Origin: a virus
IMG/VR virus record: IMGVR_UViG_3300020472_000075
Coordinates: 1 to 37,685 of that record
DNA length: 37,685 nt
Strand: one strand, 5' to 3'
The position numbers and the translations under genes were made by a program. Below the pieces are notes generated by a model. The model was not told where the DNA came from, searched no databases, and saw nothing but the letters and a program-made list of their open reading frames with translations. Shown here one piece after another: positions 1 through 36,040 of this stretch. The stretch's first letter is position 1; every line of letters begins with the position of its first letter.

Positions 1-83
1 CCGCCTGTAGGCACGATGATCTGTCCCTTAGAGGTTCTTGCCATTGCTTCCAATGCTTTTTCCTGATGAGGACGTAACTGCAT
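1..83 (-). CDS. SF2 helicase, N-terminal fragment (cut by window edge)
   Basis: Only the first 27 codons are inside the window. They read MQLRPHQEKALEAMARTSKG followed by QIIVPTG. The RPHQ..AL segment matches the Q-motif-like region, and IVPTGG is the start of a Walker A loop, as in DEAD/DEAH or type III restriction-like helicases that begin directly with the motor domain. T4 UvsW has a long extra domain before its motor, so this is probably not UvsW. The start is the ATG at 83-81, 26 bases after a TGCTATAAT promoter. It follows the methyltransferase ORF on the same strand and may belong to the same module. The fold is clear, the function is open. Confidence 0.7.
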   Translation of the reverse strand, partial: MQLRPHQEKALEAMARTSKGQIIVPTG

Positions 84-162: not shown

Positions 163-573
163 TTAGAAAAACCCTTCTAGTGTTGCTTCTAATGGTGTTC
201 CATCAAATTTATAATGATAGTTTAAAGCATCAGCACAAACATAATGTGAATGTGTAGTAGAAATACCCAATCTATTGCATAATTCTTTATGATTATCTTC
301 CATATATTCTACACCATAAAGCATATTATTTAATATATGTTCCTCACTATGATATTGTAATAATCTATCTTTTAACCCAACTAAGAAGTTACCTGATCCA
401 GCAGAATTATCTAAAAATGTTGAATTAGGATCTTTAAGATCCTCAATAGGATAAGCATCTATCATTTCTTCCACTAACCAAGGTGGAGTAAATACTTCCC
501 CAGTTGAATCTACTCTATCATCTGAACGATCTATATTAGATCCTACATTCTTATTATGTTCATTTCTCTTCAC
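163..573 (-). CDS. adenine DNA methyltransferase, SAM-binding part (motifs X, I-III only)
   Basis: A 136-residue protein with the SAM-binding half of a gamma-like N6-adenine methyltransferase. Residues 25-30 are GEVFTP (motif X, as in HsdM and Eco57I-type enzymes), 53-63 are FLDNSAGSGNF (motif I), 86-92 are YGVEYME (motif II, acidic ribose-binding residue) and 114-117 are ADAL (motif III region). It ends about where the catalytic NPPY would follow, and NPPY is instead in the next upstream gene. Its ATG overlaps that gene's stop (ATGA, 570-573), so the two are probably translationally coupled. I infer that the two proteins pair to form one active enzyme. A decayed remnant is possible, but the tight overlap and intact motifs argue against it. 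Confidence 0.75.
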   Translation of the reverse strand: MKRNEHNKNVGSNIDRSDDRVDSTGEVFTPPWLVEEMIDAYPIEDLKDPNSTFLDNSAGSGNFLVGLKDRLLQYHSEEHILNNMLYGVEYMEDNHKELCNRLGISTTHSHYVCADALNYHYKFDGTPLEATLEGFF

Positions 574-1643
574 TTCAATACCTCATTCTTATAATCATTA
601 TACTTTTGAATAATTTCATCATCAGTATCACCAACTCTAACCCCAACTTTAAATGGATTAACTACCTTTCTCCACATAACTTGCTCAGTTCTAAAGTTAC
701 CCCACTTAGAAGATTTAACTAATCTTTTACCAATATCAGAATTAATAAAGTGAACAATAACTTCACCTTCCTCCTTAGAATTAACATTAATCCAAGTCAT
801 ATGATCTGAGCATCCCATATCACCATCATCATAAATGGCAAGAATGTATCTACTCTCAGAGAACATAACCTTCTTATCAAACTGATTCTTAGGATGAGGA
901 ATTGCAGAATAAGCAATAGTTTTCTCACCTTGAGCATTGAGTTTATGGAGAATAGGGTAATCAGTTATATAATCAACTAGATTCTTATTACCAGGATTTA
1001 AATGCCCACTTCTAGTTGCCTTCATATACAAATCTAATGGAACTTCATTCTCTCTTGAAAAGAAAGAAACTAAATCCCAAAGTTCAATCTCATTATTAGG
1101 TAAGAAATCTCTACCTCTAAGATCAAACTCCATATAATCCTTCTCACCTTGCCATCTAACAAGAGAATTTTTATATGCTGGTACTTTTTCCATACAATAA
1201 TAATCATATCTAGTACCTGCACCAAAGGTTTTCATACCTTCAGCATCACTATGAATAGAAAGTTTATGAAATTGATACTCAAATAAACGATTTAATTTAT
1301 GTCCTGGTTTTCTCCATGCTGAAGGATGTACATGATTCATCCAACCACCATCTACAACAACATTCTCAACTACAGGTATAAACTTATCCCATTGGGTTTT
1401 ACCAGCGTTCTTAAGTCCTTCTGCCTGATATGGTGGATTGATTAAAGAATGGGTAAACTTCATGTTAGGAATAGAATTAGTTGATGATACAGTTGTAATA
1501 TTTTTATCTAGTATTGCTATTAAATCTCTACTCCATTCTGTTGGTTCAAATACAACTATATTCTCTGGTTTAAATTTTAATACATTAATACCATAATAAG
1601 TATGGCAACCAGTTGGATCACCCAATATAAAGAGTTTCTTCAT
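570..1643 (-). CDS. adenine DNA methyltransferase, catalytic/target-recognition part (NPPY)
   Basis: A 357-residue protein with the catalytic NPPY tetrapeptide (motif IV) at residues 69-72, followed by about 285 residues that resemble the catalytic and target-recognition part of Eco57I-type N6-adenine methyltransferases. No FxGxG motif I precedes NPPY. The segment IVVFEPTEW (29-37) looks at most like a weak motif II. The SAM-binding motifs are in the 136-residue ORF directly downstream. Together the pair would be complete, but the gene order is catalytic part first and SAM part second. The ATG at 1643 overlaps the helicase stop by four bases, so helicase and both halves form one operon. Likely role: modification of phage or other DNA; target sequence unknown. 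Confidence 0.75.
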   Translation of the reverse strand: MKKLFILGDPTGCHTYYGINVLKFKPENIVVFEPTEWSRDLIAILDKNITTVSSTNSIPNMKFTHSLINPPYQAEGLKNAGKTQWDKFIPVVENVVVDGGWMNHVHPSAWRKPGHKLNRLFEYQFHKLSIHSDAEGMKTFGAGTRYDYYCMEKVPAYKNSLVRWQGEKDYMEFDLRGRDFLPNNEIELWDLVSFFSRENEVPLDLYMKATRSGHLNPGNKNLVDYITDYPILHKLNAQGEKTIAYSAIPHPKNQFDKKVMFSESRYILAIYDDGDMGCSDHMTWINVNSKEEGEVIVHFINSDIGKRLVKSSKWGNFRTEQVMWRKVVNPFKVGVRVGDTDDEIIQKYNDYKNEVLK

Positions 1644-3766
1644 CCTCTGGAATACATATTATCTAGTAATTCTAGCGGAATAGTGCGGTTACTACCTTTA
1701 CTAATGGACAGTTTAAAAAGTGTCCCCATCTCATCCTGATTCATAGAACTTTCAACCTGTGTACTAGACTGAATCAATCTATGAGTAAATGACTTAAGAT
1801 TCAATAGACCCTCATCAAATGCTCTTGCAAGACAATTATCTGTATCTTGAGTAATTTTAGCATATAAATCAGAAGTTAGCAATGAAGTCGTATTTTGAAT
1901 CCGTTTACCTTCTTTCAATTCATAGAACTGAATCAAAGGTATTGAATCTGTAATAGACTTTAAAGTTTTAAGTTTTAATAGTAGTTCTTTATCACCTTTA
2001 TTCTTAGAACTTAATTTAACTTTATTCGACTTACCATTAGTATCATTATCATTAACAGTTACACTCTTTAAACTATCTTTAGAACTAGACTTTAACTCAA
2101 TATTCATTTGAAAATCTTTCAACTTATTATAATCAAGTGATGAAAGAACTGAAGATATTATACGAACAGAAGCATTTGCATCAGAAGCAACAATTCCACT
2201 AATTTCTTCCTGTGTTAATTCTCTAAATCCATTCTCAAACTCATATATTGGAACAAAATCAACTAAATTGTAATCAAGTAAAGCAGGATTTCTTTCAGAA
2301 CTTGTCACATAATATTGAATTAATGACTCAAGACTACGTTGTGGACAGAAATCTACCACATCCCAATCTTTGTTACTACTTCCACCACGAAAAGCAAATT
2401 GTGTCCAAAATTCTGCCGACTTACCCTCTTTGGCATTAATAATAGTATCCCACAATTCTTGTGTTACTCCAAGAACATTTGCTTCATAGGTAAAAGTAAT
2501 TGTTTTACCCTCTATATTTTCCTGAATAAACTTCTCAATATCATCCGACCCTCTACCAGTCTCACCAGTTACGACAAATGGAAGATAATATGACTCAATC
2601 ATTCTAGCAAACAAATGACATGCCTCTACACTAGGTAGACACATTAGCATGTGTTGAGATGAACCAAACAAACGATCCTTACGATTCCTAATGTGTATTT
2701 GTGGAGAAAAATATTTCTGAATAAAGTCTCTTACTAGATCCTTATTAATAAATTCACTATCTTCAATATGAAATATATTCTTCATTGCATCAGGATCATC
2801 TCCATAAATTGACTGATACAAATTACTCTGATACTTAACAACCTTAACATTCATCTTAGGACGTGGATTCTTATACACACCCAATTTATTATCAAGTTGT
2901 TCTTCAAAATAAGAATAAACAAAAGTATTTTCTTCAGGATATTGCCAAATTTGACTATATGCTGTCCCAGAAATACTCAGACAAGGTGTTGTAATTAATT
3001 GATTACGAATATTCTGAAACTGCTTTGCACTATTTCCAATATGAGACTCGTCAAGAATAAGAAGATTAATATTTGTCAGTTCCTTTAATTGCTTTAAACG
3101 ACCTCTCTGTAGACCCTGAACTGTAGACCATAAAACAATTTGTAGTTCTGGATTCTGGAGATAATAATTAAGATCACTCTTCCATGAAGGATCTTTCATA
3201 TCAATAACCCTAATATTTTTAAATATATCAAATCTCGTAGCATCCTGAAACCAAGAATCACTAGGAGACCTACGATAAGAAACTAATAAAGAAACCTTAC
3301 GATTACTATTAACAATATGATTCAAAGTCATTGCTGATTTACCAGAACGACACTTAGCAAATAAAAGAAATTCTAACCATTCTCCTTGTGCTTTTGCAAC
3401 AAATTCTCTCTGATATGGATATGGTTCAAAAATAACTCTTTCTTTCTTTTCCTCAATAAAGAACTCCTTTTCAATTAGACCTTTAACAATATCAATACTC
3501 AAACCACAATCTTCAGGAAACCCATAAGTTTCTCTACCAATTTTAAAGATATGAGGAATAGTAAGAATAAATTTCTGTATATCAGTATCTCTACCATCAA
3601 AATTAGTCCACCAACCCTTCTTTATTCTTGCACTACCAACTGCCTTTAAATCTTGATTTGACTTACCATAATCACCATCCTTATGCCTTTTCTCATAAGT
3701 GTGTATGGTTTCTCCTAATCCAAAAGCAAATGGATTACCCTTAAATCCGTCGAGATAAATGTTCAT
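1640..3766 (-). CDS. SF2 helicase of the methyltransferase module (restriction-type)
   Basis: A 708-residue superfamily 2 helicase. Visible motifs are YPYQREF (Q-like, 116-122), AKCRSGKSA (Walker A, 137-145), LILDESH (motif II, DESH at 239-242) and SISGTA (motif III, 264-269). The second RecA-like lobe carries TYEANVLG near residue 430 and ends in QFAFRGGSS (motif V/VI region with the arginine finger) near 460. The Walker A has RSGKS rather than GxGKT. About 110 residues precede the motor and about 200 follow, the latter Ser/Lys-rich, with no nuclease motif that I recognise. It is the first gene of an operon with the split methyltransferase, behind its own promoter, like the helicase partner of a restriction-modification-type system. 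No Shine-Dalgarno is visible before the ATG. Confidence 0.8.
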   Translation of the reverse strand: MNIYLDGFKGNPFAFGLGETIHTYEKRHKDGDYGKSNQDLKAVGSARIKKGWWTNFDGRDTDIQKFILTIPHIFKIGRETYGFPEDCGLSIDIVKGLIEKEFFIEEKKERVIFEPYPYQREFVAKAQGEWLEFLLFAKCRSGKSAMTLNHIVNSNRKVSLLVSYRRSPSDSWFQDATRFDIFKNIRVIDMKDPSWKSDLNYYLQNPELQIVLWSTVQGLQRGRLKQLKELTNINLLILDESHIGNSAKQFQNIRNQLITTPCLSISGTAYSQIWQYPEENTFVYSYFEEQLDNKLGVYKNPRPKMNVKVVKYQSNLYQSIYGDDPDAMKNIFHIEDSEFINKDLVRDFIQKYFSPQIHIRNRKDRLFGSSQHMLMCLPSVEACHLFARMIESYYLPFVVTGETGRGSDDIEKFIQENIEGKTITFTYEANVLGVTQELWDTIINAKEGKSAEFWTQFAFRGGSSNKDWDVVDFCPQRSLESLIQYYVTSSERNPALLDYNLVDFVPIYEFENGFRELTQEEISGIVASDANASVRIISSVLSSLDYNKLKDFQMNIELKSSSKDSLKSVTVNDNDTNGKSNKVKLSSKNKGDKELLLKLKTLKSITDSIPLIQFYELKEGKRIQNTTSLLTSDLYAKITQDTDNCLARAFDEGLLNLKSFTHRLIQSSTQVESSMNQDEMGTLFKLSISKGSNRTIPLELLDNMYSRG

Positions 3767-3786: not shown

Positions 3787-3795
3787 ATTATAGCA
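3787..3795 (-). promoter_or_regulatory. extended -10 promoter of the helicase-methyltransferase operon
   Basis: The minus strand reads TGCTATAAT, with CTCACA 18 bases upstream (4 of 6 matches to TTGACA), 21 bases before the helicase start codon. It lies directly behind the terminator of the preceding fibre gene, so it gives the module its own start of transcription. Its -35 region sits inside the terminator hairpin. Confidence 0.65.
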
Positions 3796-3799
3796 GAAA

Positions 3800-3822
3800 A
3801 GGGAACCCTTGTGAGGTTCCCT
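3800..3822 (-). terminator. rho-independent terminator after the fibre gene
   Basis: On the minus strand, AGGGAACC, a 7-base loop (TCACAAG) and GGTTCCCT form a perfect 8-bp stem followed by TTTTC. It lies 28 bases after the stop of the 1548-residue fibre gene. The U-run is short, so leakage is possible. It is the only convincing terminator that I see in the window. Confidence 0.75.
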
Positions 3823-16934: not shown

Positions 16935-18713
16935 CTAAATTCCGTAATCAGATCTAACTACTTCAAAATTATTCCTAATCTCACTTTCAGTTAAAGCATG
17001 ATCATAATATTTAATATTACCCATAGACCCAAGCCAAGGAAATTTGGCTCCTGCTGATGATGAAATTTCACCCATATATGTTGATTCTGAACGAGATCCA
17101 ATCCACCCAAATCTTGGAGTCTCATCATCCTCTTGAGAACCTATTGGCATATGCGTATTAGTATCCACACCTACTACAACACCATCAACATAAAATACAA
17201 TAGAGGAAGCCGTACTTATACCAGGTCCATATGTTAACGTAGAACCCGCACCAGTTGGATTACTATCAAAAGTAACTGCTATCTGATGCCAATTATCATC
17301 TCTCAAATCCGCAGAATCAACAGCAACTATATCATTAGTACCATCATTCGTCTCTTCAGTAAATGCAAAAGATGGTTTTCCTATAGAATCAGTGCCTTTG
17401 TTACTATTTCCAATTCCAAATCTCCAAACAGAACTTCTATCAAATGACATAATGACTCTCTCATCTCTATCTCTTGATGGAGATATTGTTCCACTTGTAG
17501 CTTTCACCCAAGCCTCAATAGTCATTGTGGATATTTGATCTTCAGGACCACTTTCATATTTCAAAGTCTGAACAAACAAACCTTGTCCTGAAGAATTTGA
17601 TGTTCCAGTCCATACAAATTCTTTTTCAGATTCATTAAATGATACCCTACTGGAAGCACCTTCATGAATAACAGCATGATATTTGTTATCACTCATATCA
17701 GTCCAATCAGATCCAGCTGCCATAAACTTAGAATTATTTTTAGCATCATAATGCAATATTAATCCACTATATTTCACTGATGGTTTTTCTATATCAACTG
17801 ATTCTATTACATTTATTATACGTTGAGTATTTGCTCTATTATCATCAAATCCAACTTCTTCTCTTTCATGAGCCCAATTTTCTATCTGATCATCCATCCT
17901 AGCTTCTTTTAAAGCATTAATATCAGCCAATTTTGTATCTCTTAATATTCTTAATCTATTAATCTCATCCGTTGCTGCTTGTTGAGCAGCAAGACAAGCA
18001 ACACATTCTGCCTTATCTGGTCCAGACTCAGCAGTATTTACCCATTTATTAACTACAATATGTTTTCCATAGTTTGGTCCACTTATATAAACATCATATT
18101 CCCAATCATAAACTCTAAATGGGCTATTATAGTTTCTATTCGCACCACCCTCAGTTACATTACTAATAACTAAATCTTCTAAAGTAGCATCACCAAAAGG
18201 ATTTGGATTAGTTTTTTCATACTTATTACTATACTGTTCTAATAATATTTTATCACCATAAACAGTACTACCAACTCCAACAGCAACACCATTTAAATAT
18301 AAAGTTCCTCTTCCATGCCCTGAAGGAGTATTAATAGAACATCCAGCACTAATAGCAGTATTTTGTTCAGATATTATTAATTGCTGTTGAGTTCTTATTT
18401 GTTGATTAAATTCTATTATTTGCTTATCTAATGGTTCTAAAATAGCACTATATTCTTTTACTCTTCTACCAGATTCCTTAATTGAAGATTCTTCTCTAAC
18501 TTTTGGACCAGTCTTAAATACATTAACTTCAGTAACTTTATCTCTTACCCATCTACCTTGATCATTTAAATAGACATCTGTCCTCTCTATACTACTCGGT
18601 AAAGTAGAACCAACTGCAACAGTTGCATCATCTCTACTATATACACCTTGTGTATTATCTAAATCTAGTTTATACGATGTGGTTAAATTTATAATATTGG
18701 GATTAGTTGCCAT
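16935..18713 (-). CDS. LamG/concanavalin-like virion structural protein
   Basis: A 592-residue protein. Residues 1-90 are a beta-rich start with GVGSTLPSS-like elements. Residues 95-120 and 240-300 look like coiled coils, the second opening with CVACLAAQQAATDEINRLR. Residues about 315-585 form a LamG-like jelly roll: GLILHYDA, then TIEAWVKA, NWHQIAVTFD, VFYVDGVVVG and GNIKYYDHALTESEI, the usual order of strands in LamG_3 domains. Such domains bind carbohydrate or decorate fibres and capsids in marine myophages. It has its own late-type box upstream and is followed by an early promoter. Likely a fibre or decoration protein exposed on the virion; placement is inferred. Confidence 0.8.
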   Translation of the reverse strand: MATNPNIINLTTSYKLDLDNTQGVYSRDDATVAVGSTLPSSIERTDVYLNDQGRWVRDKVTEVNVFKTGPKVREESSIKESGRRVKEYSAILEPLDKQIIEFNQQIRTQQQLIISEQNTAISAGCSINTPSGHGRGTLYLNGVAVGVGSTVYGDKILLEQYSNKYEKTNPNPFGDATLEDLVISNVTEGGANRNYNSPFRVYDWEYDVYISGPNYGKHIVVNKWVNTAESGPDKAECVACLAAQQAATDEINRLRILRDTKLADINALKEARMDDQIENWAHEREEVGFDDNRANTQRIINVIESVDIEKPSVKYSGLILHYDAKNNSKFMAAGSDWTDMSDNKYHAVIHEGASSRVSFNESEKEFVWTGTSNSSGQGLFVQTLKYESGPEDQISTMTIEAWVKATSGTISPSRDRDERVIMSFDRSSVWRFGIGNSNKGTDSIGKPSFAFTEETNDGTNDIVAVDSADLRDDNWHQIAVTFDSNPTGAGSTLTYGPGISTASSIVFYVDGVVVGVDTNTHMPIGSQEDDETPRFGWIGSRSESTYMGEISSSAGAKFPWLGSMGNIKYYDHALTESEIRNNFEVVRSDYGI

Positions 18714-18736
18714 TTTCGCATTAAATATAGTATAAT
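18707..18736 (+). promoter_or_regulatory. sigma70-like promoter TTGCCA-18-TATAAT
   Basis: On the plus strand, TTGCCA (18707-18712; 5 of 6 matches), an 18-base spacer and perfect TATAAT (18731-18736), 18 bases before the ATG of the glycosyltransferase-like gene. The resulting leader would be only about a dozen bases, without a clear Shine-Dalgarno. It overlaps the start of the divergent LamG gene. Confidence 0.6.
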
Positions 18737-18739
18737 GAA

Positions 18740-18747
18740 TTATTTAG
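18740..18747 (-). promoter_or_regulatory. late-type promoter box CTAAATAA
   Basis: The minus strand reads CTAAATAA 27 bases before the LamG gene start. It fits the nTAAATA pattern seen before other structural genes. It overlaps the opposite early-type promoter region of the plus-strand gene. Confidence 0.4.
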
Positions 18748-18754
18748 ATCTATT

Positions 18755-19738
18755 ATGAAAGTTGCTCTTCTTCTAACTGGATATATGAGAAATTGGGAGA
18801 AACATCTTCCCAATATAAAAGAAAATATTGTAGATAAGTATTCAGCAGATGTTTATATTACATCATACAGTTACTCAGAATTATTTAAAGGATCTGGTTT
18901 AATAAATGTCGATAAAGATAAATTAATTAAAGAATATCAACCAAAAAATTATATATTTAGAGATAAAGAAACTCTACCAGAATTTGAATTTAAAGTGAAT
19001 GGATTAGAAAGAAATGGTAGAGAGTGGTCATATAGAATTTTGAAACAATGGTATACCATATATCTAGCATTAGATTTGTTTGATCCAGAAGATTATGATG
19101 TAGTAATAAAATGTAGAAGTGATTTCTCTACAAAAAATTTCAATATTAAACCAGATAAAGACCTCGTAATTCCTGCATGGAAATATCATCCAGGTCCTTG
19201 TGAACCCAATGAATCATACATAGATTATTTTGTACATGGTAATGGAACATATATAAAAAAATACTTTAAAACATACGAAAAATTAAAGGAACTGCATGAT
19301 AATGATTGGGGCGATATCTCACTAGGAGAAACTATAATTAAATCATATATTGATCGATATATTGGTGCAGAACATGTTACATATGATTATGATATGGATT
19401 GGTTGATGCGAGATGAAATATGGGCTTCTGAAAAAGCAGAATTATTCCCTTTAGAAGGACTTTTTGATATTAATGCACAGGCAGATGGAATAAGTGGATT
19501 TCAAAATAATAACACTAAATCATTATATCAAACTGATAATGAGAATTTATGGAATTCAAATCAACAAAGATTAACTCGACGATTTTACTATAGAATGTTG
19601 GATACGGATCAACCAATAGGTGTCGGATTAACGGCAAAGCAAGAAAAGAATACTAAAGAAATTGAATCAAAACAAAAGAAAGCAGATTTATTAATAGAAA
19701 AGATCCTATATTCTCATTTCTTTAACTCTAACCACTGA
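18755..19738 (+). CDS. putative glycosyltransferase (WavE/capsule-synthesis-like)
   Basis: A 327-residue protein on its own on the plus strand. The N-terminus VALLLTGYMRNWEKHLPNIK and the segment DVVIKCRSDFST (115-126) resemble the nucleotide-binding start and RSD motif of WavE-like and related capsule or lipopolysaccharide glycosyltransferases; the specific sugar is unknown. It has no signal or membrane segment. Residues 256-268 (SLYQTDNENLWNS) are nearly identical, also at DNA level, to part of the tape measure protein on the other strand. A sigma70-like promoter lies directly upstream. The 3' end overlaps the convergent 2OG-oxygenase gene by 25 bases. It looks like an inserted accessory gene. 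Confidence 0.65.
   Translation: MKVALLLTGYMRNWEKHLPNIKENIVDKYSADVYITSYSYSELFKGSGLINVDKDKLIKEYQPKNYIFRDKETLPEFEFKVNGLERNGREWSYRILKQWYTIYLALDLFDPEDYDVVIKCRSDFSTKNFNIKPDKDLVIPAWKYHPGPCEPNESYIDYFVHGNGTYIKKYFKTYEKLKELHDNDWGDISLGETIIKSYIDRYIGAEHVTYDYDMDWLMRDEIWASEKAELFPLEGLFDINAQADGISGFQNNNTKSLYQTDNENLWNSNQQRLTRRFYYRMLDTDQPIGVGLTAKQEKNTKEIESKQKKADLLIEKILYSHFFNSNH
19520..19560 (+). repeat. 41-bp dispersed inverted repeat, copy 1 (in glycosyltransferase-like gene)
   Basis: These 41 bases on the plus strand match the minus strand of 28728-28768 at 40 of 41 positions. They encode SLYQTDNENLWNS in frame. The single difference (GAG versus AAG) changes Glu to Lys. Confidence 0.9.
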
Positions 19739-34588: not shown

Positions 34589-34837
34589 TCACCATTTTTT
34601 AATAGGACAACTCGACATCTTCATTTTTACCTTTTGTTGTAAATAACATCCACACTTTGCACATCTCTTACGTTTTTTTATAAAATGTTCACATGCCTGA
34701 CATATATCATATCTTCTTTTCCTTTCAAAATCATCAACAAATAATTCATCACCATTAACAAATGCTTGCATAGTTTTTGCAAGAGTGTCTGATAAATTTT
34801 TTCCTTGTTCACCTAATGAGGGTAACTCTTGAGTCAT
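34589..34837 (-). CDS. small Zn-ribbon protein (82 aa), paralogue of the 136-aa gene
   Basis: An 82-residue protein with six cysteines, C46-x2-C49-x9-C59-x2-C62-x-C64-x12-C77, and the ending SSCPIKKW. The cysteine spacing is identical to that of the 136-residue gene two positions upstream (35630-36040), so the two are paralogues. The pattern resembles small zinc-ribbon proteins common in marine phages next to oxygenase genes. It should bind zinc; its partner is unknown. Its ATG overlaps the stop of the 2OG oxygenase by four bases, so it is probably coexpressed with it. Confidence 0.75.
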   Translation of the reverse strand: MTQELPSLGEQGKNLSDTLAKTMQAFVNGDELFVDDFERKRRYDICQACEHFIKKRKRCAKCGCYLQQKVKMKMSSCPIKKW

Positions 34838-35673
34838 TCATAACCTCCACCAGCATGACCTCCACCAACATTAAACCATCCAGTAACAATATACTTATTC
34901 TTTGCACTACCTGTTAATACCAAATTACCTTTATGTGCATGAGTCATACCAGCTGGCCAAATTAACAATTTACCAGTTTCAGGTTTTATTCTTTTTTTAT
35001 AATATAGAAATTCTGTTTCCCCACCCTCAAAATCATCATTTAAATACACCATCCACACTAAACATCTAGAAGAATCTACACCAGATCCCGTATTTTCATC
35101 ATGCCACACATGATAACCTCCACCTGGTGGAGTCATCTGTACTTTCTGACATGTTGAATAAAATGTTTCTCTTTTTATATGTCCAAATACATGAATATAT
35201 TCTCTTAACTTTGCAAATATTACGTCATTTAAATCCCGATCTGGTCTACCATCCATCTTTAGATTCATATGACCCAAATCTATTGAATATCCAAATCTAC
35301 CTGCCATAGAATCTGGAAACTGATCATCTTCACACCATACAGAATCAGTGGTCATATAATAATCCATTGATTTTATTATATGATGACACATCATATCTGG
35401 AACACATTTTTCGTATGTTCCTATAAAATCTTCATACTTTCCAGGAATATATGGTACATTTAATGGACCAAATTTTACATCATCATCATCGTCGTCATTA
35501 TTATCATTATCATCATTTACAGGTAATTCAGATTCCTCTATATTCTTTACAAGTAATTCAGATTCCTCTATATTCTTTACAAGTAATTCAGATTCCTCTA
35601 TATCTTGTTGATTACTATTATCAACAATCTCATTCTGAGGTATCTGTATCTTCTGTATTGTCTTCATCTTCAT
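34834..35673 (-). CDS. prolyl-4-hydroxylase-like 2OG-Fe(II) oxygenase with acidic repeat N-terminus
   Basis: A 279-residue protein. Residues 24-52 are three copies of a 10-residue repeat (IEESELLVKN), then an Asp-rich run (54-65). The catalytic part follows. PPGGGYHVWHDEN (182-194) holds the proximal ligands (H188 or H191 with D192/E193), MVYLNDDFEGGETEF is the conserved strand-turn, and AGMTHAHKGN has the distal histidine (H245 or H247). K260 in NKYIVTGWF would bind 2-oxoglutarate. Likely hydroxylates protein residues. SD AGGAGG before the ATG at 35673, which is 44 bases inside the upstream gene. It is flanked by two Zn-ribbon paralogues and lies near a Gly-X-Y fibre gene, a possible substrate. 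Confidence 0.8.
   Translation of the reverse strand: MKMKTIQKIQIPQNEIVDNSNQQDIEESELLVKNIEESELLVKNIEESELPVNDDNDNNDDDDDDVKFGPLNVPYIPGKYEDFIGTYEKCVPDMMCHHIIKSMDYYMTTDSVWCEDDQFPDSMAGRFGYSIDLGHMNLKMDGRPDRDLNDVIFAKLREYIHVFGHIKRETFYSTCQKVQMTPPGGGYHVWHDENTGSGVDSSRCLVWMVYLNDDFEGGETEFLYYKKRIKPETGKLLIWPAGMTHAHKGNLVLTGSAKNKYIVTGWFNVGGGHAGGGYE
35521..35603 (-). repeat. 30-bp in-frame tandem repeat (2.8 copies)
   Basis: The 30-base unit starting at 35521, 35551 and 35581 (last copy 23 bases) is almost perfect; only base 35522 differs. It encodes a 10-residue repeat in the N-terminus of the oxygenase. Confidence 0.9.
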
Positions 35674-36040
35674 TTAAATCATCCTCCTGTACGAGTTTTT
35701 CAAAATAACCAGCATCAATAAAGATCTTTTGATGTTCTTTAGGTAATTGCTGTGCTGCTGATGTAAACGCACTAGCAAACCAACCCTTCTTATCAATAGG
35801 CCAATTACCTATAGGACATTCATCATGAATTGTTGATATTTTGGACATCAACTCACATCCACATTCATTACATTCCATTACCTTAGAATTAAGATGTTCG
35901 CAAGTTTGACAAATTCCTAAACGTTCTTGTATGGTCTCTAATGAAGGTACTGCATCAAGACTATCCTCATCAAGTGTATTATGTTCATAGGTAAAAAGAT
36001 ATATTAATTCCCTTAATACCTCTGGATCATTGTAATCCAT
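35630..36040 (-). CDS. Zn-ribbon protein with acidic tail (136 aa)
   Basis: A 136-residue protein. Cysteines C44-x2-C47-x9-C57-x2-C60-x-C62-x12-C75, ending in DECPIGNW, have exactly the spacing of the 82-residue gene at 34589-34837. The C-terminus (about 117-136) is very acidic. The first gene of the Zn-ribbon / oxygenase / Zn-ribbon operon, with a strong sigma70-like promoter just upstream. The next gene starts inside its 3' end (44-base overlap). Zinc binding is inferred from the cysteines; function unknown. Confidence 0.7.
   Translation of the reverse strand: MDYNDPEVLRELIYLFTYEHNTLDEDSLDAVPSLETIQERLGICQTCEHLNSKVMECNECGCELMSKISTIHDECPIGNWPIDKKGWFASAFTSAAQQLPKEHQKIFIDAGYFEKLVQEDDLNEDEDNTEDTDTSE

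Follow-up and report, generated by a model that had tools for sequence, protein, structure and literature searches.

Can one active site of an adenine methyltransferase be shared between two genes, and what would a phage gain from carrying such a pair beside a helicase? The question is raised by a viral DNA of 37,685 nucleotides (nt), positions 1 to 37,685 of IMG/VR record IMGVR_UViG_3300020472_000075, referred to here as the window, a 37.7-kb contig with T4-like tail and baseplate genes. In prokaryotic adenine methyltransferases the motifs binding S-adenosylmethionine (SAM) and the catalytic motif normally lie in one chain. Here, three minus-strand open reading frames (ORFs), coding for a helicase, a protein with the catalytic motif NPPY and a protein with SAM-binding motifs, form one operon with 4-nt overlaps between successive ORFs. 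An earlier sequence-only reading of the window had proposed a system resembling restriction-modification and an enzyme of two subunits with an unusual architecture. Both proposals appear supported by the present analysis, with the family of the small subunit (PHROG 4376), the gene order of phage S-CAM7 and a permuted single chain in Aeromonas phages as evidence. On these sequence comparisons, the operon probably encodes ATP-dependent restriction-modification carried by the phage, in which the N6-adenine methyltransferase consists of two chains. Its main features, with sizes in amino acids (aa), are the following:

163–573, minus strand: small SAM-binding subunit, 136 aa, PHROG 4376 (family matches and alignment)
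484–498, minus strand: motif X, EVFTP, residues 26–30 (E26, F28 and T29 invariant)
385–417, minus strand: motif I, FLDNSAGSGNF, residues 53–63 (G59, G61 and N62 invariant)
292–318, minus strand: motif II, YGVEYMEDN, residues 86–94 (E89, D93 and N94 invariant)
223–237, minus strand: motif III-like CADAL, residues 113–117 (alignment A1)
570–1643, minus strand: large methyltransferase subunit, 357 aa, with a degenerate SAM half (residues 1–60), an NPPY half and a recognition region
1599–1622, minus strand: non-canonical motif I, GDPTGCHT, residues 8–15 (alignment A6; GDPSGxH is common in the family)
1428–1439, minus strand: catalytic motif IV, NPPY, residues 69–72 (NPP invariant in alignment A6)
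1640–3766, minus strand: restriction-type protein, 708 aa, with an N-terminal T5orf172/GIY-YIG-like domain and a superfamily 2 (SF2) helicase (PHROG 22930, E 7e-220)
3497–3766, minus strand: GIY-YIG-like (T5orf172) domain, residues 1–90, with Y4, FGLGET, R27, D60, Q64 and E79
3335–3355, minus strand: Walker A, KCRSGKS, residues 138–144 (invariant in relatives)
3041–3052, minus strand: helicase DExH motif, DESH, residues 239–242 (conserved in relatives)

The ATGA overlaps by which the operon had been said to be joined were found between the helicase and NPPY genes; the second overlap is GTGA, because the start codon of the 136-aa ORF is GTG. All four motifs predicted for this downstream ORF (X, I, II and III) were present, the last in the III-like form. 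With an E of 3.5e-5 the 136-aa protein passed the curated cut-off of Pfam N6_Mtase; it matched PHROG 4376 with an E of 7.5e-61, and it is 51–65% identical to its cyanophage relatives, relatives being found in 69 phage records. Among the small phage subunits, collected with a scan whose pattern was their own motif II, GxG was present in 75 of 76, motif X in 76/76 and NPPY in none of the 76. A PDB sequence search with the small protein gave a weak alignment to CamA (E 0.06). The possibility that this ORF is a decaying piece of a full methyltransferase was excluded, as it belongs to a conserved family.

The upstream ORF had been described as NPPY plus a recognition part. NPPY was confirmed, and the first 60 residues were found to add beta1–3 of a complete Rossmann fold. 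In the AlphaFold2 model (mean predicted local distance difference test, pLDDT, 70.5; residues 1–180 mostly >70) the strands stand in complete Rossmann order at residues 4–7, 29–32, 50–52, 63–68 (then NPPY), 96–106, 123–131 and 146–155, and the whole model superposed on the gamma-class enzymes M.BseCI, CamA and M.TaqI with a VIA Z of 10–11, the M.TaqI superposition beginning at M.TaqI residue 39. Motif X is absent from the 357-aa protein, motif I is replaced by GDPTGCHT and GxG was seen in 0/51 relatives, so that the protein alone does not qualify as an ordinary single-chain gamma-class enzyme; it is, by its model, of gamma-class shape with no motif X and a non-canonical motif I. The complete SAM pocket that the sequence-only reading had considered for this protein is there only in part, with a complete fold and incomplete SAM motifs. 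M.TaqI itself departs from GxG, which is not strictly needed for SAM binding, and therefore the absence of GxG from the large subunit is no proof against it.

The 357-aa protein had no Pfam match, PHROG 3689 ("DNA methyltransferase") was matched by its first 109 residues, and a PDB sequence search gave no meaningful match. Its relatives were reached by way of the small subunit and with iterative profiles; tblastn in phages returned one match, at 25% only, and an IMG/VR scan with this protein as single query returned none. An NPPY-type motif was found in 77 of 80 large phage subunits, the other three being NFPF, NSPF and one truncated sequence; the 0/51 for GxG refers to those with an N-terminal half, which is missing altogether from 24. 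With a Rossmann fold that is complete though degenerate, the 357-aa protein is more than a bare half, and the two proteins form a reciprocally degenerate pair and not the pieces of one gene simply cut in two. Taken together, the pair holds the motif set of an N6-adenine methyltransferase, with motif X, GxG and the motif II acid in the 136-aa protein and NPPY and the gamma-class fold in the 357-aa protein.

No nuclease gene had been seen in the operon by the sequence-only reading. This did not hold, since the helicase N-terminus aligned with T5orf172/GIY-YIG domains. In the alignment of this family Y4, G18, T20, R27, D60, H64 and E79 are conserved in 24–26 of 27 sequences. The Pfam search gave no direct T5orf172 match for the window helicase itself; the domain was over the cut-off in its relatives L095, L084, L068 and L078, and hhalign of the N-terminal family against bacterial T5orf172 gave a probability of 86% and an E of 5e-6 (0.48 for an unrelated family), which places the N-terminus in the T5orf172/GIY-YIG clan by profile-level homology. 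With Walker A, DExH and the family profile, the 708-aa protein has the marks of an SF2/ResIII helicase; Pfam ResIII was under the cut-off for the window helicase (E 0.0011) and over it in relatives. Therefore, one operon links methyltransferase genes to a predicted nuclease, the linkage expected of restriction-modification.

The arrangement is recurrent in phages. Across phage records and IMG/VR loci, an NPPY gene accompanies the small-subunit gene in 90 of 93 cassettes and overlaps it in 77 (the overlap lengths rest on mechanically chosen start codons), and the remaining three loci are truncated by contig ends. A search for the three-gene order in other phages had been suggested; S-CAM7 has an order identical to the window, and the same adjacency was found at about 90 phage loci, well beyond what chance would give. 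In type A cassettes, to which the window belongs, a GIY-YIG-like helicase accompanies an NPPY protein of 320–470 aa, and in type A2 (MC09 and many IMG/VR loci) the two are fused into 1040–1100 aa. Type B has a PD-(D/E)XK-like protein of ~200 aa, an NPPY protein of ~400 aa and a helicase of ~480 aa in varying order; the ~200-aa protein carries conserved E, GxD and QxK, with a Pfam Mrr_cat E of just 0.12. These PHROG 7683-type proteins (L006 6485–7087, L018 1655–2266, L003 5439–6002) are an unannotated candidate nuclease. In the clean type, such as P-SSM2, the NPPY protein has ~190–280 aa and begins 8–18 residues ahead of NPPY.

Additionally, in Klebsiella and Vibrio T4-like phages a LEM-3-like GIY-YIG domain is fused to the NPPY part and followed by the SAM subunit (L013 1991–3926; L015 1813–3971), a fusion listed as homing endonuclease in PHROG 314. 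The Aeromonas phages, among them Aeh1 with its chain Aeh1p090, have one chain of 415 aa with NPPY at residue 9 and motifs X-I-II-III C-terminal; this natural fusion holds both parts in the same reversed order, and its SAM half is of the small-subunit type only. Two further loci were noted: in an uncultured jumbo phage of 484 kb, one SAM-type ORF is clustered with three of the NPPY type (L004 4150–10804), and the human gut phage NatCom_35866 has a bacterial-type pair of a 260-aa SAM subunit and a 506-aa NPPY protein (L016 2663–4958).

Pairs of related phages showed which parts can be lost. L043 and L067 are collinear, with 83–84% identity on either side of ~2.4 kb extra in L067, which consists of the helicase and the N-terminal half of the large subunit, the junction lying 9 residues before NPPY; L035 and L052 differ at the same boundary (junctions 8–9 residues before NPPY). 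Therefore, the helicase and the N-terminal half of the large subunit travel together. The NPPY/recognition part with the small subunit is the core that stays, and the helicase-linked half is dispensable. Moreover, cassettes can be replaced as a whole: ACG-2014f C90 and C24 have 96% identical flanks, small subunits 98.5% identical and unrelated cassettes, and the S-CAM7 isolates CC49 and SB42 have 99% identical flanks, small subunits 95% identical and, once again, unrelated cassettes. Whole restriction-type cassettes are exchanged in this way between near-identical cyanophages, beside a constant small subunit (L006 6475–9945 versus L009 2991–6076; L002 versus L018). The cassette edges carry terminator-promoter repeats of 44–77 nt, which could serve recombination.

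A homologous trio was found in Proteobacteria, Actinobacteria, Firmicutes, Verrucomicrobia, Bacteroidetes and others, in the order SAM protein (~217 aa), NPPY protein (~540 aa) and GIY-YIG helicase (~850 aa), annotated as N-6 DNA methylase, Eco57I methylase and GIY-YIG nuclease. The operon helicases bear the T5orf172 domain here too, and one is named "GIY-YIG nuclease family protein" in RefSeq. NPPY was present in 64 of 64 bacterial large subunits, GxG in 0/64 and K[ST]G in 63/64. The motif II acid was absent from all 63 bacterial large subunits read, and E or D was found in 70/70 small ones read; the bacterial scan used the small-subunit motif I as its pattern, which in itself accounts for part of the GxG seen in the small subunits of bacteria. 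Two bacterial loci, L146 and L150, are clean splits with NPPY at residue 11 and no SAM half. Judged from their sequences, bacteria widely use the same two-chain plan as the marine phages. No published function was found for the bacterial trio in the open-licence papers searched. On the Lactococcus cremoris plasmid pUC047G the SAM subunit precedes an Eco57I-type protein of 1461 aa (L191 1970–7049), possibly a helicase-NPPY fusion on dairy plasmids.

From these findings a mechanism can be proposed, in which we infer that the two chains physically assemble and share an active site, that DNA is methylated and restricted, and that the phage turns this against rivals. The 136-aa subunit would supply motif X and the SAM-binding half and the 357-aa subunit NPPY and target recognition, and both would assemble in the reverse of the normal gamma-class order to form one active site, by which a specific sequence in the phage DNA would be methylated. 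With its GIY-YIG-like domain and SF2 motor, the 708-aa protein would be the restriction subunit, attacking competing DNA that shares the cell and lacks the modification; lytic phages would thus use the system for self-marking and for the exclusion of rivals. The small subunit would be kept constant while NPPY, recognition, helicase and nuclease cassettes are exchanged beside it, altering specificity. For a wider generalization the balance seems even: that bacteria and T4-like phages share an architecture of a two-chain active site, a constant SAM half-enzyme, swappable NPPY/recognition partners and restriction modules that come and go (T5orf172 helicase, PD-(D/E)XK plus helicase, GIY-YIG), serving phage self-marking and rival exclusion, with specificity changed by cassette swap.

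Several observations weigh against the two-chain restriction-modification reading. The structure model of the natural Aeromonas fusion had a predicted template-modelling score (pTM) of 0.40; each half was predicted, the packing of the halves was left unsettled and the Foldseek matches were weak, so that the argument for a shared active site is drawn from motifs and genomes and not from this model. The minimal versions (P-SSM2, L035, L043) persist as two genes with no helicase in the cassette. Modification alone can therefore suffice, and it stays a serious, if rather unlikely, rival that the pair only methylates phage DNA against host restriction, the helicase with its nuclease-like domain being inactive or a non-restrictive remodeller. 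The window protein fits this in having Q64 for the common His and F15 for the canonical Tyr/Lys, which deviate from the usual GIY-YIG residues; Y4, R27 and E79 are present. By contrast, the relatives have conserved the helicase motifs along with R27 and E79, and the cassettes have repeatedly gained nuclease-like modules of three kinds (T5orf172-helicase, PD-(D/E)XK-like plus helicase and LEM-3-like GIY-YIG).

The 357-aa protein might also bind SAM, given its complete Rossmann fold, which superposes on M.TaqI, CamA and M.BseCI, and the conservation, within the type A family, of GDPSGxH and of an acid that follows beta2. It is improbable, however, that the large subunit suffices by itself as a gamma-class methyltransferase whose SAM pocket is unusual, the small protein being a regulator or SAM sensor, for instance one gating restriction: the SAM half is missing from 24 phage NPPY proteins and from L146 and L150, the N-terminal half was lost together with the helicase while the small subunit was retained, the Aeh1 fusion holds the small-subunit SAM half only, and the motif II acid is absent from the bacterial large subunits. 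A decayed or mis-assembled single methyltransferase gene, as which the non-canonical motif I could be read, has next to no probability and was rejected together with a frameshift, the small subunit being conserved across cyanophages with motif I intact in 75/76, the frames open at about 90 loci and the halves in reversed order, which excludes a frameshift origin, as the sequence-only reading had held, and which recurs naturally in the Aeromonas chain.

The operon is bordered by two further features:

3787–3822, minus strand: terminator hairpin of the upstream gene, then the promoter-like TGCTATAAT of the operon (consensus matches only)
1–83, minus strand: start of the next gene, a helicase (MQLRPHQEKALEA...), truncated by the window end (the same neighbour in most relatives)

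The promoter that the operon had been said to own thus has a candidate. A terminator-like stem at 1604–1622 was disregarded, as it sits within the coding motif GDPTGC. Elsewhere in the window, a 279-aa ORF at 34834–36040 with a 2-oxoglutarate (2OG)-Fe(II) oxygenase match and a C-terminal DNA endonuclease family match overlaps a 136-aa ORF, and this oxygenase may be split or mis-started. At 16935–19738, a 592-aa minus-strand ORF and a 327-aa plus-strand ORF, the latter alone among minus-strand genes, have weak matches to unknown-function families.

If the two-chain restriction-modification reading is true, it would give a function to PHROG 4376 (T4-GC 34), a common marine phage gene of unknown role, and a natural split within the catalytic domain, in many bacterial groups and many ocean phages, would alter the interpretation of such genes. 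Present annotation sees two separate methylases, and defence-system models match piecemeal: in PADLOC, PDLC03375 (a 348-position model) is matched from the NPPY region onward and PDLC03626 covers the helicase and NPPY region. Two questions become directly testable, whether complete restriction systems are carried by lytic cyanophages to act on competitors, and whether the exchange of one cassette beside a constant subunit alters methylation specificity. No description of a split adenine methyltransferase pair or trio was found in the open-licence literature, an absence that is weak evidence.

Among known systems, the trio of the Rhizobium phaseoli plasmid pRphaN671a is alike in its SAM-motif small subunit, its NPPY large subunit with a degenerate SAM half and its T5orf172/GIY-YIG helicase; trios of this bacterial type differ in their small-large-helicase order, larger proteins, and K[ST]G as motif I and GIAIT/GIGIT as motif II of the large subunit. 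M.AquI and M.EcoHK31I are split 5-methylcytosine methyltransferases with a catalytic domain made from two genes. Unlike the phage pair, they are cytosine enzymes with the halves in native order and have neither helicase nor exchangeable cassettes. The adenine methyltransferases MTA1-MTA9 and METTL3-METTL14 each pair two related chains, of which one is degenerate in its SAM binding. In these heterodimers (PMC9174199), the SAM site and the catalytic motif are on one chain, whereas in the phage pair they are on different chains.

Type ISP enzymes (LlaGI, LlaBIII; PMC4666363) combine an SF2 motor, a gamma-class adenine methyltransferase with a recognition domain, and a nuclease. They do so in one chain, with a Mrr-family PD-(D/E)XK nuclease and an intact methyltransferase; the window system has three chains, a T5orf172/GIY-YIG-like N-terminal domain and a separate SAM subunit, and is therefore not of Type ISP. 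CglI (PMC5737866) performs ATP-dependent restriction with the endonuclease R.CglI and the helicase H.CglI, and is alike in its separate helicase-like subunit, ATP dependence being predicted from the genes in the phage system. In CglI nuclease and helicase are separate proteins, whereas here both are fused and linked to a putative two-chain adenine methyltransferase. Circularly permuted M.EcoKI-like methylases of jumbo phages are mentioned by Iyer et al. (PMC7824862); these, Aeh1p090 among them, are alike in having the NPPY part first and the SAM part last, and they are single chains with no helicase, whereas the methyltransferase pair of the window is encoded by two genes.

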